DNA of 35,562 nt, taken from IMG/VR virus record IMGVR_UViG_3300042509_000916, positions 1 to 35,562 of that record. One strand, given 5' to 3'. A program made the translations under genes and the position numbers. The notes below the pieces were generated by a model. That model did no database searches and had not been told where the DNA came from. It saw only the letters and a program-made list of their open reading frames with translations. Of the stretch, positions 17,216-34,833 are shown piece after piece. Numbering within the stretch: position 1 is the first letter of the stretch; each line of letters opens with the position of its first letter. The stretch comes from a virus.

Positions 17216-18562
17216 ATGCAGCCTATTAACTACTTGCCGCAACAACAGCCAGATATTTTGTCAGGATTCATTTCTGGCGCACAGCAAATTGCACAGATCA
17301 ATGAGGCCAAACGCGTAAAAGATTTACAGGCTCAATATGCAATTGACCTGCAATCAACGATGAAAAATCCTACCGCACAGGCATTCGGAGAATTGGCTCT
17401 AAAATATCCTGGGCAAAGGGAGGCTATTCTTGCGTCCGGTAAGTACGTTACAGAAGCGCAGCAGAATACGCTTTTCGGCGATGCGGCAAAGATTTACAGC
17501 GCGCTGAATACCGGCAAACCTGATGCTGCATTGTCATATGCAACACAGAAACGTGACGCATTGAAAAATGCAGGGAAGGACACTTCTGATTACGACGAGG
17601 TTATTTCTGCAATCAATACAAACCCTGATGCTGCAAAGGCTACCATCGGAATCATTGGTGCTTCACTAGACCCTAAAAAATGGCTAGAGATTCACAAGGC
17701 ACCATCTGAAATTTCCGAGGCTCAAGGAAAGGCGCAAAAGGCGCTGGCAGAAGGTAAATATGCAGAAAAATTGCAAATTGCTGGTCTAAATGAGAAAAAT
17801 TGGAATATTGAGAATCTGCAAAGTCAGATTAAAGACAGGTCTGCCCGTCTGAATCTTGATAGGGAAGTAACTAAGGCAACAGTGGAAGAGAAAATGTCGT
17901 CTATCGAAAAGAATCTTAACGACATTCCGACCGATACCAGAAAGCTGATAAATGAGGCAGCAGTAACTGCAGCCACATCTAAACAGGCCGCAAACCAGTT
18001 TAATGACTTGGCAAATAAACTTGATGCAGAGGGCGGTGGTTATGGTGCGTTTTCTGGGGCAACTGACTTTGTGAAAAAGGTTGGAGGTTTTGAGGGCGGC
18101 ATGACGCAGTTGCGTCAAGAGTATGTCCGTCTTAGGAACACTGCTGCGGTTAAATCACTTCCGGCCGGTGCTGCATCGGATAAAGATATTGCAATGGCAC
18201 TTGAAGGGTTCCCGTCGAAGAATGCTTCTGCTAGCGACTTGTCATCATTCCTTCGTGGTGTCGCAAAATTGCAAGACCTAGATGCTTCTGTTTCAAATGC
18301 TAAAACTGATTGGCTTGCACAGAACAACGGCGTTTTGACTAGGGCAAAGGGGGCGTTTATTGCAGGTGATTATTCAGCTAGGCCGGGCGAATCATTCAAT
18401 GACTTCTCTCAACGTATTGCCGCTGATGTTTCCAAACGCTATTCAAGAGGAGGTCAAAGCTCATTGGTTGAGCAAATTCCAACAGAGCGCAACACTTCAC
18501 CAATGGCGGCGCAGCAGAATATCAGGTCGCAGGCTGACGCGATTTTGCGTGGGGGTCGATAA
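17216..18562 (+). CDS. P22 gp20-like ejection (DNA transfer) protein
   Basis: This 448-residue protein (P22 gp20 is 471) has a helical, Ala/Gln/Lys-rich composition with features of the ejection proteins: QPDILSGFISGAQQIAQINE near residue 13, the AMKNPT-like segment with LALKYPGQREAILASGKYV (about 60-80) and FLRGVAKLQDLDASVSNAKT near 344. It lies between gp7-like and gp16-like genes, its TAA overlapping the start of the next one, the P22 order. gp20 is ejected into the cell during infection. Confidence 0.88.
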   Translation: MQPINYLPQQQPDILSGFISGAQQIAQINEAKRVKDLQAQYAIDLQSTMKNPTAQAFGELALKYPGQREAILASGKYVTEAQQNTLFGDAAKIYSALNTGKPDAALSYATQKRDALKNAGKDTSDYDEVISAINTNPDAAKATIGIIGASLDPKKWLEIHKAPSEISEAQGKAQKALAEGKYAEKLQIAGLNEKNWNIENLQSQIKDRSARLNLDREVTKATVEEKMSSIEKNLNDIPTDTRKLINEAAVTAATSKQAANQFNDLANKLDAEGGGYGAFSGATDFVKKVGGFEGGMTQLRQEYVRLRNTAAVKSLPAGAASDKDIAMALEGFPSKNASASDLSSFLRGVAKLQDLDASVSNAKTDWLAQNNGVLTRAKGAFIAGDYSARPGESFNDFSQRIAADVSKRYSRGGQSSLVEQIPTERNTSPMAAQQNIRSQADAILRGGR

Positions 18563-20469
18563 TGGCAACTGCTGACGAATACGCGTCATGGATAGTTAAG
18601 AATCAAAGCAAACGAGGGTCATCTGAGTTTGAAACTGTTGCTCGTGCTTATGAGTTGGCTAAAAGCGAAGAAACAGCAGCGCAGACACAACAGCAAGTAA
18701 CACAACAGCCACAACAGCCTGGAATCGGACAGCAAATTGTCGGCGCAGGCGAGGCCGCCTTAACGCTTGGCACAGGTGCAGTAGGCGGCACGCTTGGAAT
18801 GATTGGTGGAACCCTTAAAGGGCTGGCGGAGCAGATTCTGACCGGTCAATTTGGCACACCGCAAGCCGCAAAGATGGTCGAGCAGGCTGCAGCAAAGGGC
18901 GCACAGGCTCTTACTTATGCTCCACGTACAGAAGTTGGTCAAGAGCGGGTTCAGCAGGTTGGGCAGGCATTGGCAGAGGTTATCCCGCCATTCATGCCGC
19001 AATTGTCTGTGCCTGGGCAAATGGTACAAGCTGCACGACAAGCCGCGCCGATGGCAGAGATTGCAGCACAAAGAGGGACGCAGGCAGTACAGCAAGCCGC
19101 TAGAACGGCAGCGAAGCCCGTACAAGCCGCTACAACAGCAGTTCGTGAGGCAGTGGGCATTGAGCCTAAGCAACCGGCTAAAACTGCCGTAAGCGGATCC
19201 GCTGGCGCAGCTGCGACACCGTTAGAGTTGCAGCGTGCAACAGAAGCGGAAATGGCTGGCTTGCGTCTGTCTGAAGGCGAGGTAAAACGCTCGCCGGAAT
19301 TGCTTGCTTGGGAAAAAGAGAAGGCTAAAACACCGGAATACCAAGCGCCATTTCTTGAGCGGCAGCAAGAAAACAACCGTGCGGCACTTGCTAAACTTAA
19401 TCAAGTGCTTGATGCAACAGGTGCCGAATCTGGGGACTACTCAAACACCGGTATCAAGGTGGTTGATTCGTTGATGTCTGGTTGGAAGGCTGAGAAGGCT
19501 AAAACCTCATCGCTATACAATCAATTCAGGCAATCGCCAGAGGCATCATTTCCGGTCAATACGGCACCGATAACTGACTTTTTGAATAGTCAGGCTAGAG
19601 GAGTTTCCGGCATTACTGGAGTGTCTGACACTGCCCGTCAAAATGCTGTCAATCTCGGAATTGCTCAAATTGATGATGCAGGCAACCTTGTCCCCAACCC
19701 TAGAGTGACGCTCGGACAGCTTGAAGATTTTCGGCAGTCCGTATCTGCTATTGGCGCAGCCAGTCCGAACGACAAGCGCATTGCCTCTATCATCAAAAGA
19801 ACGGTTGATGATATTGGGGAACCAATTGCAGGTCAGACTACAAAGGCAATGAGGGCGCAGCGTCAGAAGCAAGCGCAGAAGTATGAGAATCGTGCCATTG
19901 TTTCACGTTTGTTGCTTGAGAAAAAAGGCATGGCAGACCCTCAAGTGCCAATTGAGGAAGTATTCAACAAGACGATTTTGTCTGCCCGTCCGAGCGAGAT
20001 TCAGCACATTAAGCGTGTGCTGATGACGATTAAAGATGACGAAGGCAAACAGGCGTGGCGTGAATTGCAAGGTGCAACTGTGCGCCACTTGCTTGAAAAA
20101 TCCGAATCAGGTATTGGCGCTGATAATTTGCCGGTTATATCTGGTGCAAATCTGGACAAGGCATTGAAAGCACTGGACAAGAACGGCAAGCTAGATCTGG
20201 TGATGGGCAAAGAGGCGGCAGAGCAAATTAGAAACCTGAATCAGGTTTTGAAATATATCCAATCGACCCCACCGCTAACGTCTGTCAATAATTCCGGCAC
20301 TGCTAGAACTATTGCGGCATTGTTGGCTGAATCTGCTGTAATTGGAGGGCTGTCTGGTGTTCCAGTCCCTGCAATTCAAGGAATGAATTTTATTCGAGGC
20401 GCAGTTAAAGACAGGAAAATCAAAGCCAGAATCACAAAGGCATTGAACTATAAGCCAGAAGGTAAATAA
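18562..20469 (+). CDS. P22 gp16-like ejection (DNA transfer) protein
   Basis: This 635-residue protein (P22 gp16 is 609) starts MATADEYASWIVKNQSKRGS, which resembles the N-terminal segment of phage internal proteins (residues 1-35). A hydrophobic Gly/Ala-rich stretch follows at about residues 60-100, then an Ala/Gln-rich region to about 200 and a long helical domain to the end. gp16 of P22 is required for DNA transfer across the inner membrane and can act in trans. I do not see a clear lytic transglycosylase motif. The TAA overlaps the tailspike start. Confidence 0.85.
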   Translation: MATADEYASWIVKNQSKRGSSEFETVARAYELAKSEETAAQTQQQVTQQPQQPGIGQQIVGAGEAALTLGTGAVGGTLGMIGGTLKGLAEQILTGQFGTPQAAKMVEQAAAKGAQALTYAPRTEVGQERVQQVGQALAEVIPPFMPQLSVPGQMVQAARQAAPMAEIAAQRGTQAVQQAARTAAKPVQAATTAVREAVGIEPKQPAKTAVSGSAGAAATPLELQRATEAEMAGLRLSEGEVKRSPELLAWEKEKAKTPEYQAPFLERQQENNRAALAKLNQVLDATGAESGDYSNTGIKVVDSLMSGWKAEKAKTSSLYNQFRQSPEASFPVNTAPITDFLNSQARGVSGITGVSDTARQNAVNLGIAQIDDAGNLVPNPRVTLGQLEDFRQSVSAIGAASPNDKRIASIIKRTVDDIGEPIAGQTTKAMRAQRQKQAQKYENRAIVSRLLLEKKGMADPQVPIEEVFNKTILSARPSEIQHIKRVLMTIKDDEGKQAWRELQGATVRHLLEKSESGIGADNLPVISGANLDKALKALDKNGKLDLVMGKEAAEQIRNLNQVLKYIQSTPPLTSVNNSGTARTIAALLAESAVIGGLSGVPVPAIQGMNFIRGAVKDRKIKARITKALNYKPEGK

Positions 20470-31870: not shown

Positions 31871-32689
31871 TTACTCCCCGAAAAAATCGCTGACGGTTTT
31901 ATCCATGTCGGAAAAGAACTGTTTTGTTTCTGAGGCCTCGACCGGTTCTGCTTCGATGGTCCTGTCTTTGTCAGCCTGCGTTGCGATGGCTTTCCTGCGA
32001 TTGTGCGCCTCGGTGCCGTATGCTTTGCGCTGTGCTGGGGTGAGTTCCTTCCAGAAAGCCTGGTATGCCTGAACACCCTTTGATGCAGCATCGTCCGCAG
32101 GTACACGCATTTCCTCGGTTTCCTGAGCGATTTGCTCATTTCCAAGCGCGTCAATTTCCTTGACCATCTGCTGATTTACAGATTCGGCAATGCGGTCGGC
32201 TTCGTCTGCGTCATAGATACCTGCGAAACCGAAAGCAAGACGAGCACACTGAATCAGTGCCTTGTGTCGCAGCATACGCTTTGGGTGTGACTGCCACGGT
32301 TGTGCACTGCGTTTGCATTCGCTCATGTATTCGGTGACCGTGGTTGGGTGACTGCGGTCTTTGCGGTACATAATGCAAGTACAGGATTCATCGTCCTGCC
32401 TGAATTCCATACCATCGAATTGCGGGTGCTGATTGATGATTCGTGCCCAACCATCGACAGACACAACAGGCACAATACCTGCGTTACGGTCTGGGAAAGC
32501 GTAAATCTCTTTTGTCCAAGGGTTGAGGCCGTATTGGTTAGAAACAATCAGAAGCGCGGCGAGCTGTGAATCTGATACCTGACCTTTGAAGGCTGTCGCT
32601 TTCAGTGTTGTTACAAGTTCATCTCCTGCTCCTGTCAGGCCGAGTGCGTCTGCGAGCTTGTTTGCTTGGGCTACTACGATGTTGCTCAT
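31871..32689 (-). CDS. bet: Bet/RecT-family single-strand annealing protein
   Basis: This 272-residue protein has the Bet/RecT family pattern LNPWTKEIYAFPDRNAGIVP (about residues 55-74), VSVDGWARIINQHPQFDGME and the helix PKRMLRHKALIQCARLAFGF (about 136-155). It anneals complementary single strands made by the neighbouring YqaJ exonuclease. The C-terminal 80 residues are variable, acidic and end DKTVSDFFGE, an acidic tail with terminal aromatic residues that may recruit single-strand binding protein partners. GGAGGA precedes the ATG. Confidence 0.94.
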   Translation of the reverse strand: MSNIVVAQANKLADALGLTGAGDELVTTLKATAFKGQVSDSQLAALLIVSNQYGLNPWTKEIYAFPDRNAGIVPVVSVDGWARIINQHPQFDGMEFRQDDESCTCIMYRKDRSHPTTVTEYMSECKRSAQPWQSHPKRMLRHKALIQCARLAFGFAGIYDADEADRIAESVNQQMVKEIDALGNEQIAQETEEMRVPADDAASKGVQAYQAFWKELTPAQRKAYGTEAHNRRKAIATQADKDRTIEAEPVEASETKQFFSDMDKTVSDFFGE

Positions 32690-32704
32690 AAATCCTCCGA
32701 TAAA

Positions 32705-32721
32705 GGGCGCATGGTGCGCCC
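32705..32721 (-). other. Spacer hairpin before bet
   Basis: GGGCGCA (32705-32711) pairs with TGCGCCC (32715-32721) around TGG. It ends 15 bases before the bet ATG, just ahead of the GGAGGA site. Confidence 0.8.
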
Positions 32722-32731
32722 GTGTGGTTGG

Positions 32732-33070
32732 TTAGAATGGAATGTCGTCGAAGCAGTACGGGTCTTTGGCAAACTCTTTTTCTGCTCTCAGTTCGGCAAT
32801 GAACAGAATTGTGTTTGCCAGTTCCTTGTGAATAGCTTCATGCAATTTCTGAGAATCGCCAGCAATGTGAAGTCGAATCATCTTTTCGGCAAAGTCTGAG
32901 TCGAAGTATTCCGCAACGTCAGAAACGGTTTCGTCATCAAGGCTTTTGATTGAAGCTGTGATGATTTCGGCGTGTTCAACGGTCAATTCGAATACGGCTT
33001 TTTCTGCAGCATCTTCAAAGCGTTCGCGGCGAATCATCTCTTGGTATGCGCCTGCTGGGTAGTTGTCCAT
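32732..33070 (-). CDS. Acidic helical phage protein of unknown function
   Basis: This 112-residue protein begins MDNYPAGAYQEMIRRERFED and ends ELRAEKEFAKDPYCFDDIPF. Its helical, acidic pattern and the C-terminal DDIPF tail resemble early phage proteins beside recombination genes. The DDIPF end also resembles the acidic tail of SSB, which recruits partners, but this is only a similarity of shape. GGAGGT stands before ATG 33070, which is chosen over the longer frame. Confidence 0.75.
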   Translation of the reverse strand: MDNYPAGAYQEMIRRERFEDAAEKAVFELTVEHAEIITASIKSLDDETVSDVAEYFDSDFAEKMIRLHIAGDSQKLHEAIHKELANTILFIAELRAEKEFAKDPYCFDDIPF

Positions 33071-33108
33071 CTGAAAACCTCCTTGTGTGCTGTTATAAGC
33101 ATTTTTGT

Positions 33109-33125
33109 TGCGGCATTGGGCCGCA
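33109..33125 (-). other. Spacer hairpin before the 33070 gene
   Basis: TGCGGC (33109-33114) pairs with GCCGCA (33120-33125) around ATTGG. On the minus strand an A-run, not a T-run, follows it, so it is unlikely to be a terminator. Confidence 0.7.
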
Positions 33126-33131
33126 CTTTCT

Positions 33132-33446
33132 TTAATTAACAAAACCGCGAACGGCCACGATGTGGCCGTTGGAGCGTACAGCATCTGCCCCAGTATCCGG
33201 GGCTACAACGTCTGCCCTAGACCCGTTAAGGGCAGACAGGACCATTCCGCTAACAATATATGCGACCCCATCTTGTGGGGCCGGTACCCCACTCACATCA
33301 CCAAAAGTTTGTTTGGTGATCCGTACTTTCCCCCACCCACCAATGCAGACGCGCTTGGTTTCTACCCGCGCGATGTTTCCAGATGCCGGAAACACCCCAA
33401 CACCCTCTACGGTAATGTCGTGAGGAGTTAAATTCACAAACTTCAT
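33132..33446 (-). CDS. Conserved small protein (MKFVNLTPHDI family), hairpin-rich gene
   Basis: This 104-residue beta-rich protein begins MKFVNLTPHDITVEGVGVFP and continues with TFGDVSGVPAPQDGVAYIVS and VVAPDTGADAVRSNGHIVAV. I recognise this family from phages and bacteria, without a known activity. The coding DNA contains a close series of perfect hairpins (33150-33170, 33187-33203, 33210-33237, 33266-33280, 33297-33320, 33350-33372, 33374-33394). GGGGG precedes ATG 33446. It overlaps the upstream gene by 4 bases. Confidence 0.82.
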   Translation of the reverse strand: MKFVNLTPHDITVEGVGVFPASGNIARVETKRVCIGGWGKVRITKQTFGDVSGVPAPQDGVAYIVSGMVLSALNGSRADVVAPDTGADAVRSNGHIVAVRGFVN

Positions 33447-33907
33447 TTTTTCCCCCTATTGGAAAACTTTTCCATTTCAGCTTTAACACAAGCTTTTGCT
33501 TGTGTAGACTCGTCAACAGGCACTTTTTGCCCTATTTGTACAGCCCTTTCCGGGGCTGTTTTCCCAGATCCAAAAATGGCCATCATCAGAGCCGCCTCAG
33601 GCGAGGCGGCGTACTCGCATTGAGCGGCGATCTTCGCCTGCTCTCTCATGAGAGAGAACTTTTTTTGTGTCATTGCGGCATATGCCGCGGCCCAGTAATA
33701 GCGGGCGGCGATTGCCCAGTTTTCAAGCTCCGCTGACTTAACAGCGGAGTCCTGCTTCCCAACAGCGACGTTAGGAACCTCAGGCAGATCTTCTGCTTGA
33801 GCAAACTCTGGTACTCCCCAGTAATGCGCTTTGCTCATAACTTAAACCTCAATCCTCAATCCAGTTACTATCTTCCGACATGTTTCATGCACCCTGTGGA
33901 GTGCATG
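33150..33907 (-). other. Dense array of perfect hairpins in coding and leader RNA
   Basis: Perfect stems of 7-9 bp with loops of 3-10 nt lie at 33150-33170 (9 bp), 33210-33237 (9), 33297-33320 (9), 33374-33394 (7), 33486-33505 (8), 33540-33559 (7), 33591-33610 (8), 33728-33749 (8) and 33886-33907 (7). Shorter or wobble-containing ones fill gaps: 33187-33203, 33266-33280, 33350-33372, 33460-33474, 33626-33638, the 16-bp palindrome at 33641-33656, the 14-bp palindrome at 33675-33688 and 33779-33801. Stems are unrelated in sequence. Chance alone should give less than one stem of 7 bp or more in this length. Confidence 0.85.
33443..33838 (-). CDS. Helical phage protein of unknown function, hairpin-rich gene
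   Basis: In this 131-residue protein the middle is alanine-rich and helical (YYWAAAYAAMTQKKFSLMRE, then QAKIAAQCEYAASPEAALMM). No family was recognised. Its DNA carries more perfect hairpins (33460-33474, 33486-33505, 33540-33559, 33591-33610, 33626-33638, 33641-33656, 33675-33688, 33728-33749, 33779-33801). GAGG lies 8 bases before ATG 33838. It is the first gene of the leftward transcript. Confidence 0.75.
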   Translation of the reverse strand: MSKAHYWGVPEFAQAEDLPEVPNVAVGKQDSAVKSAELENWAIAARYYWAAAYAAMTQKKFSLMREQAKIAAQCEYAASPEAALMMAIFGSGKTAPERAVQIGQKVPVDESTQAKACVKAEMEKFSNRGKK

Positions 33908-33909
33908 GA

Positions 33910-33938
33910 TTGAAATACTACACACATTTTGGTACGAT
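33910..33938 (+). promoter_or_regulatory. Predicted rightward early promoter
   Basis: TTGAAA (33910-33915) and TACGAT (33933-33938) are separated by 17 bases. Transcription would start near 33945, ahead of the gene at 33981. It overlaps the leftward promoter. Confidence 0.6.
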
Positions 33939-33943
33939 GTAAA
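33915..33943 (-). promoter_or_regulatory. Predicted leftward early promoter
   Basis: On the minus strand TTTACA (33943-33938) and TAGTAT (33920-33915) are separated by 17 bases. Transcription would start near 33908, so the RNA begins with the hairpin CATGCAC/GTGCATG (33886-33907). Confidence 0.6.
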
Positions 33944-33980
33944 CACCCTAAGCGATTTTTTTAACATCAAGTGAGAAAAC

Positions 33981-34208
33981 ATGGAAACAAGATTCACAGC
34001 ACAATGGAACCAATATCAGCCGCAACCGGATCCGAGCATGACGCGAGATAAAGCAGCACATCTACTCAGGTCGTGGCGCAGGAATGCAAGGAAAGATAGC
34101 AACAATGGACGGTGGACATTGAAGCGGAACGGGTTGCACTCATTCACGGTGTCATGTCCTGGATACCCAAAAGAGTTCCACACGATTGCGTGGTCGACAG
34201 GCAATTGA
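33981..34208 (+). CDS. Small basic early protein
   Basis: This 75-residue protein begins METRFTAQWNQYQPQPDPSM and is basic in the centre (LLRSWRRNARKDSNNGRWTL). It ends with a short aromatic strand region (SFTVSCPGYPKEFHTIAW). It is the first gene behind the predicted rightward promoter. No family was recognised; nucleic-acid binding is suggested only by charge. Confidence 0.7.
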   Translation: METRFTAQWNQYQPQPDPSMTRDKAAHLLRSWRRNARKDSNNGRWTLKRNGLHSFTVSCPGYPKEFHTIAWSTGN

Positions 34209-34241
34209 TTCAGTCAACATCACTCTATTGAAAGTAAGAAC

Positions 34242-34421
34242 ATGACACTCGAACAGATCAAGACAATGCTGGCAGACCGCAACATTCGTGCGGTGTCTAA
34301 GGCTGCAGGCGTACACCCTAATGCTGTGTATCGACTGATGAACGGCACTACTAACCCAAAGTACGACACTGTGCAAAAGTTGATAGCCTACCTGCAAGGC
34401 CGGACAGAAAAGCAGAACTGA
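34242..34421 (+). CDS. Cro-like XRE-type helix-turn-helix protein
   Basis: This 59-residue protein begins MTLEQIKTMLADRNIRAVSK and continues AAGVHPNAVYRLMNGTTNPK, then YDTVQKLIAYL. The HTH (helix with NIRAVSKAAGVHPNAVYRLM) is a complete Cro/XRE-type fold in a minimal length, with no C-terminal effector domain. It sits directly upstream of a promoter whose spacer carries an inverted repeat (34461-34474), a natural candidate target. There is no divergent CI-type repressor gene beside it. Confidence 0.82.
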   Translation: MTLEQIKTMLADRNIRAVSKAAGVHPNAVYRLMNGTTNPKYDTVQKLIAYLQGRTEKQN

Positions 34422-34431
34422 ACAAAGAGAT

Positions 34432-34448
34432 GGGAATTGCACATTCCC
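34432..34448 (+). terminator. Hairpin after the Cro-like gene (weak terminator or spacer hairpin)
   Basis: GGGAAT (34432-34437) pairs with ATTCCC (34443-34448) around TGCAC, followed by GTTTG, a poor T-run. It lies directly before the next promoter. Confidence 0.5.
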
Positions 34449-34450
34449 GT

Positions 34451-34479
34451 TTGACAGGCGATATGTGTACATATAAGAT
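34451..34479 (+). promoter_or_regulatory. Strong sigma70 promoter
   Basis: Consensus TTGACA (34451-34456), a 17-base spacer and TAAGAT (34474-34479). It would start near 34486 and drive 34516 and the genes beyond, across the join, into replication. Confidence 0.8.
34461..34474. promoter_or_regulatory. Candidate operator inside the promoter spacer
   Basis: ATATGT (34461-34466) and ACATAT (34469-34474) are a perfect inverted repeat with a 2-base centre, located between -35 and -10 and touching the latter. A bound HTH dimer would repress. The Cro-like protein encoded just upstream is the obvious candidate, by inference. Confidence 0.6.
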
Positions 34480-34515
34480 ACTCACATCAACAACACAACA
34501 GCACCGGAGGGAATC

Positions 34516-34833
34516 ATGGCAGATTTTTCAAAAGCAAAGTTTACAAAGGTTTCTGATTACATTTTGGCAAGACATGACATGAAAGCCGGAGATAAAGGAA
34601 CCAGAACAATAATGCTTGATTCGGCAGTAAGTGAGACCGATAAAGCATTGGCATTTGAATTGCAAAAGTGGAATAGCACAGCAACAAAATTGATTAAAAC
34701 AAAATGCTGGTTTCCAAAAAAATTTATCCAAAAAGTTGAGAATGATTTTTACGTAAATATAAAACAAGATGTGATGTACGTTATCCCAGAATGGCTTGTT
34801 GACGCTAAAAAAGCAGACGGATTTGAAATATAA
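34516..34833 (+). CDS. Early protein of unknown function
   Basis: This 105-residue protein begins MADFSKAKFTKVSDYILARH and ends IPEWLVDAKKADGFEI. It mixes basic and acidic residues with no membrane segment. GGAGGG precedes the ATG. It is the first gene behind the strong promoter, so early and abundant expression is expected. No family was recognised. Confidence 0.72.
   Translation: MADFSKAKFTKVSDYILARHDMKAGDKGTRTIMLDSAVSETDKALAFELQKWNSTATKLIKTKCWFPKKFIQKVENDFYVNIKQDVMYVIPEWLVDAKKADGFEI

Follow-up and report, generated by a model that had tools for sequence, protein, structure and literature searches.

A hairpin-dense phage cassette with a Crn4-family ring nuclease homologue and signs of selection for a structured message

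The window analysed here is a virus record of 35,562 bases, and the stretch under study lies at positions 33150-33907. Two hairpin-dense genes are located there on the minus strand. The first gene (33443..33838) encodes a 131-aa orphan protein, for which Pfam, NCBIfam and homologue searches found no relatives or family, and its fold model was poor (pLDDT 47). The second gene (33132..33446) encodes a 104-aa homologue of Crn4b-type ring nucleases. A promoter-like site for a leftward early transcript, TTTACA-17-TAGTAT, lies at 33915..33943 on the same strand. This site is sigma70-like, and by consensus match only it puts the RNA start at about 33908, right before a hairpin, which agrees with an earlier sequence-only reading that had placed a hairpin at the 5' end of the transcript. 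The cassette is presumably expressed early, and the bet and exo genes sit downstream of it.

The 104-aa protein has no name in Pfam or NCBIfam, and its PHROGs entry is listed as unknown. Judged by sequence comparison and structure prediction, it is a Crn4-family ring nuclease homologue. A profile built from nine sequences of its family matched Crn4b with an E-value of 5e-12 and Crn4a with 7e-9, and a single-sequence search against Crn4 gave 3e-5. The AlphaFold model had a pLDDT of 95, and Foldseek aligned it to Crn4b (9r7b) with a TM-score of 0.73 and a probability of 1.00. The best four PDB matches were all Crn4 (probability 1.00, TM-score 0.67-0.73), and besides Crn4 the PDB gave the model no match below E 1. 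Residues T7 and H9 of the NLTPH motif, together with R91, were invariant in the nine homologues and aligned with the catalytic positions of Crn4b. PADLOC describes the matching family as "sometimes fused to CARF." A recent report describes Crn4 as breaking down cA3, cA4 and cA6, which act as messengers in type III CRISPR, counts it in 11 phage genomes and proposes an anti-CRISPR role for the phage orthologues (Chi et al., 2025, PMC12830947). By homology, the 104-aa protein probably degrades the cyclic oligoadenylates with which type III CRISPR signals.

Read from the predicted RNA 5' end, with all features on the minus strand, the leader hairpin CAUGCAC-UCCACAGG-GUGCAUG (33886..33907) comes first. 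It is followed by an 8-bp stem with a 24-nt loop (33798..33837), the upstream arm of which runs from base 2 of the first gene's start codon; this stem is a possible regulatory fold, though it is absent from the predicted MFE fold. Next come a hairpin of 8 bp with a loop of 6 nt (33728..33749), the palindromes GCGGCAUAUGCCGC (33675..33688) and CUCUCUCAUGAGAGAG (33641..33656), and three further hairpins of 8 bp with loop 4 (33591..33610), 7 bp with loop 6 (33540..33559) and 8 bp with loop 4 (33486..33505). The short hairpin UGGAAA-AGU-UUUCCA occupies 33460..33474. The second gene then contributes hairpins of 7 bp with loop 7 (33374..33394), 9 bp with loop 6 (33297..33320), 9 bp with loop 10 (33210..33237) and 9 bp with loop 3 (33150..33170), and at the codons of the last one a shorter hairpin is present in L120.

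A stem scan of 33150-33907 recovered nine perfect Watson-Crick stems (7-9 bp, loops of 3-10 nt) in addition to palindromes and shorter stems, in keeping with the at least nine that the sequence-only reading had counted. The density of perfect stems was 11.4/kb in the array (nine per 790 bp) and 0.69/kb in the remaining window. The expectation that chance would yield well under one such stem was borne out by dinucleotide shuffles of the stretch (mean 0.30, maximum 3 in 3000 trials), and the Poisson probability of at least nine stems at the genome rate was 7e-9. Codon-preserving shuffles, the control named in that reading, gave stem z-scores of 9.1 for the gene at 33132-33446 and 6.0 for the gene at 33443-33838, and each gene exceeded all 5000 of its 5000 shuffles. 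The next-ranked genes of the window were 373-1137 (4.3) and 18562-20469 (3.4), with most others near 0, and the density was indeed unusual within this genome. RNA folding of 33120-33915 gave -325.9 kcal/mol on the transcribed strand with a z-score of -8.2, compared with -6.7 on the opposite strand (20 shuffles for each strand). Elsewhere in the window, an 11-bp perfect stem at 799-824, inside the gene 373-1137, was the longest observed; it recurs letter for letter on the complementary strand of the relative L094 (1709-1734) and is perhaps a replication or primer site.

Each stem of the array has its own sequence and is unrelated to the others, as had been noticed at the outset. A repeat family of REP- or MITE-like palindromes was rejected because the stems share no sequence. 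An Rfam search of the array gave no match, and no DNA relatives of it were found among GenBank phages. A different arrangement was observed in L008, where inverted repeats TGTTCCCA and TGGGAACA alternate in tandem every ~30 bp at 1700-1845, in contrast to the mutually unrelated stems of the array.

Alignment with empty sites showed that the two hairpin-dense genes and a short intergenic stretch form a cassette with approximate limits 33075..33880 (minus strand). Three close relatives, L093, L094 and L095, are without both genes, yet the promoter region is kept in them, as are the leader and the gene that comes next; their identity to the window phage is about 94-95% in Bet (where measured) and 84-91% in P0003. 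The promoter-like site is kept in these relatives with single changes in L094 and L095. The leader hairpin is letter-identical in L093, and its outer pairs are lost in L094 and L095. Since L093 has the intact leader hairpin and is without both genes, this hairpin is ancestral and older than the other stems, which came with the cassette or evolved in it. On this point the sequence-only reading, which had taken the leader hairpin together with the others, needs correction. The 75-aa ORF at 33981-34208 on the plus strand, across the same promoter region, is also absent from L093-L095, so that accessory insertions flank the divergent promoter on both sides.

The lack of the cassette in close relatives is consistent with a history in which it came from generally hairpin-rich donor genomes and carries stems that have no function in this phage, and dense blocks often have a higher G+C content than their own contigs. 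However, the codon shuffles preserve each gene's own composition, no uniformly dense donor was found, and in G001 the dense blocks are islands too. The RNA-strand bias described below also implies selection somewhere. We consider such an inherited signature improbable. No close homologue of the window cassette was found.

Relatives of the 104-aa gene were fetched from viral contigs, and a density profile was computed over 29 crn4 loci, which include the window that raised the question and some loci related to each other; length was the only criterion for calling ORFs in this survey, and thresholds were set in the course of the analysis. Perfect-stem density at crn4 was 8.3, 7.5 and 5.9 times that of shuffles in the 500-nt bins at -500, 0 and +500, and fell to ~2-3 times beyond 1.5 kb. 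The Bet loci used as a control had 0.5-2 times the shuffled density and no peak near bet. Among small ORFs, a codon-shuffle z-score above 3 was reached by 29% of the crn4 genes themselves and by 27% of their near neighbours, against 8% of distant ORFs of the same contigs (Mann-Whitney p 6e-5 for crn4 genes and 3e-6 for near neighbours) and 3.8% of small ORFs in Bet loci (n=531). Strong cases were L007, L115, L120, the L128 family, L141 and L151, and the positions and sequences of their stems differ. These recurrent rows of sequence-unrelated stems at crn4 suggest that the message is selected to be structured.

The distribution is uneven. Roughly one crn4 locus in two is not hairpin-dense, and in named phage or plasmid loci the crn4 gene was above z 3 in one of eight. 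Dense genes also exist away from crn4. The strongest case of all, L007 189-785, is a 198-aa orphan gene located upstream of crn4; its seven stems measure 7-12 bp, and its codon-shuffle z-score is ~15. On the 95.7-kb contig of L007, further dense genes were observed at L098 1267-2202, 3694-4155 and 17610-18167 and at L099 12873-13884, with codon-shuffle z-scores of 6-13 and some stems of 11-14 bp; one of them is HAD-phosphatase-like. As a control, another ring nuclease type (PF08960) was not dense near the gene, with four viral relatives only, too few for a comparison. Bacterial Crn4 was sparsely sampled, with one locus in the species collection and two matches in 398 genomes.

Stems kept at the RNA level should tolerate one internal sense-strand G.U pair but not A.C, and we counted stems of at least 8 pairs with a single internal non-Watson-Crick pair against codon shuffles. 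In crn4 genes, 21 stems with one G.U were found (6.6 expected) compared with 8 with A.C (4.9 expected), and other single-mismatch stems were near expectation. In the wider crn4 region, the counts were 64 (12.5 expected) and 28 (12.2 expected), respectively. Stem pairs of close relatives had 36 G.U and 21 A.C changes, whereas column pairs generally had no such bias (ratio 1.03-1.11). Local folding across 32 crn4 genes gave mean z-scores against codon shuffles of -3.09 for the sense and -2.33 for the antisense strand, and the sense strand folded better in 24 of the 32 (p 0.002); the window crn4 gene alone had no strand difference (-4.7 and -4.9). Because G.U is in excess over A.C and sense folding goes beyond antisense folding, selection appears to act on the sense mRNA.

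This asymmetry bears on an origin at the DNA level, by which template switching perfects palindromes or DNA hairpins aid recombination beside bet and exo. The stems are perfect and turn over fast, and bet and exo are indeed downstream. Neutral template switching, offered in the sequence-only reading, does not predict that G.U is tolerated inside stems far more than A.C while column pairs in general are unbiased. The recombination role also failed, as relatives with 94-97% identical Bet are without the genes and Bet loci have no excess of stems. The DNA-level origin is already disfavoured, and we give it little weight.

The sequence-only reading had also proposed a search for compensatory changes in related phages. 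Unrelated stems do recur around crn4, but fixed-pair covariation was weak, and the few two-sided changes lay mostly in a terminator hairpin. In L144-L149, one coding hairpin occurs in two registers, one in L146, L147 and L149 and the other in L144, L145 and L148 (alignment A4, columns 110-132), with the protein nearly unchanged between these close relatives. We read this as selection favouring structuredness per se over any one given structure.

The array begins at the predicted RNA 5' end, and nine terminator-like sites on both strands were counted in 32600-34600 compared with 2.1 expected, which would suit a leader that acts in antitermination or attenuation in the manner of HK022 put RNA, one of the roles first suggested. 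The action of put depends on particular RNA elements close to the 5' end. The two are alike in that an early phage transcript begins with hairpins; in contrast to put RNA, the array has no conserved element, and its unrelated stems extend over 700 nt of coding sequence and are not the same from phage to phage. In addition, few transcribed-strand stems carry a U tract, and the Rfam search was negative. A leader of this kind is very improbable, the least likely of the explanations we weighed. Among the suggested roles, a function in mRNA protection or against host defence does fit, given the sense-strand bias and the Crn4 homology, while recombination and a put-like leader are not supported.

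The reason for selection on structure can be approached through the accessibility of the message. The predicted fraction of unpaired bases hardly differed from shuffles, and a blanket loss of accessibility was rejected on that ground; the emphasis was therefore laid on opening energy. Opening 32-nt, crRNA-sized sites in the two window genes required 13.3 and 14.1 kcal/mol, compared with 10.2 and 11.6 kcal/mol in shuffles. This is ~3 kcal/mol above the codon shuffles, with z-scores of 6.3 and 4.1; three other dense genes gave 5.7-9.1 and four control genes of the window 0.5-1.5. A type III complex has been reported to detect structured target RNA less well, with a loss of two orders of magnitude in the case of one guide, and the authors suggested relevance in vivo (PMC8682760). 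Taken with the Crn4 homology, the recurrence of stems at crn4 and the strand bias, this leads us to favour, over any other single explanation, a cis-acting RNA armour that protects the anti-CRISPR message, with a probability of about 0.38.

The model proposed for such armour is as follows. The two-gene cassette lies directly behind the predicted early leftward promoter, and its Crn4b-type product, by homology, would cut the cyclic oligoadenylate signal of type III immunity. Codon choice in both genes would have been selected to give many short, strong and independent hairpins in the sense mRNA, every ~40-90 nt. Almost every crRNA-sized stretch would then contain a stem to be melted before an RNA-guided type III complex or other RNA-targeting complex could pair, and the stems might in addition resist single-strand-specific RNases. 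The message could survive long enough to be translated, and the signal would be switched off. That the stems block type III complexes and their RNases from the phage's own anti-CRISPR transcript, and would thereby form a structural RNA anti-CRISPR that has no conserved sequence, is a tentative proposal that we hold more loosely than the armour reading as a whole.

The main rival, close behind the armour reading, is general protection, in which the stems guard an early message against housekeeping RNases or leave Rho no unstructured site for loading on the first genes of the transcript, with no special tie to CRISPR, and crn4 is one of several accessory genes expressed in this manner. The position of the array at the start of the predicted early transcript, the neighbours of crn4 that are as dense as crn4, the other dense accessory genes on the L007 contig and the C-poor, G-rich sense strand of the window cassette are all in its favour. 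However, the sense strand is C-rich in the dense genes of L120 and L128, and general protection alone leaves unexplained both the peak at crn4 and the lack of one among the small ORFs in Bet loci. The armour reading in turn has to face the crn4 loci and named phage or plasmid genes that are not dense, the dense genes away from crn4, the nearly unchanged unpaired fraction, the missing strand difference in the window crn4 gene and the weak covariation.

If armour is the correct explanation, it would represent a second layer by which viruses evade RNA-targeting immunity, with an anti-CRISPR protein acting in trans and the fold of its message acting in cis. It would also address a timing problem, as an anti-CRISPR must be translated from a transcript already visible to the defence. 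None of the papers found describes strong and local selection, at the level of the sense strand, on how the RNA of accessory genes in dsDNA phages folds, and this holds equally with general RNA protection as the cause.

Several known systems can be compared with the present one. The 104-aa protein shares with Crn4 (Crn4b) its sequence, predicted fold and catalytic His and Arg positions. The accessible part of PMC12830947 covers the Crn4 protein only and mentions no mRNA structure, cassette or hairpin-dense neighbours; to the 11 phage genomes with Crn4 given there, the present analysis adds about 35 viral contigs. Structure in viral coding RNA, as far as the accessible part of PMC6563262 describes it, likewise folds better than codon-preserving controls. 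In contrast to that case, the structure described here is confined to a small number of accessory genes in dsDNA phages, and it is made up of separate, perfect hairpins that differ from one relative to the next. A likeness in mechanism would be to PMC8682760, in which crRNA target sites become hard to open when the RNA is stably folded; that work was performed in vitro with a reporter target, whereas here the same effect is proposed as a natural, selected trait of a phage message.
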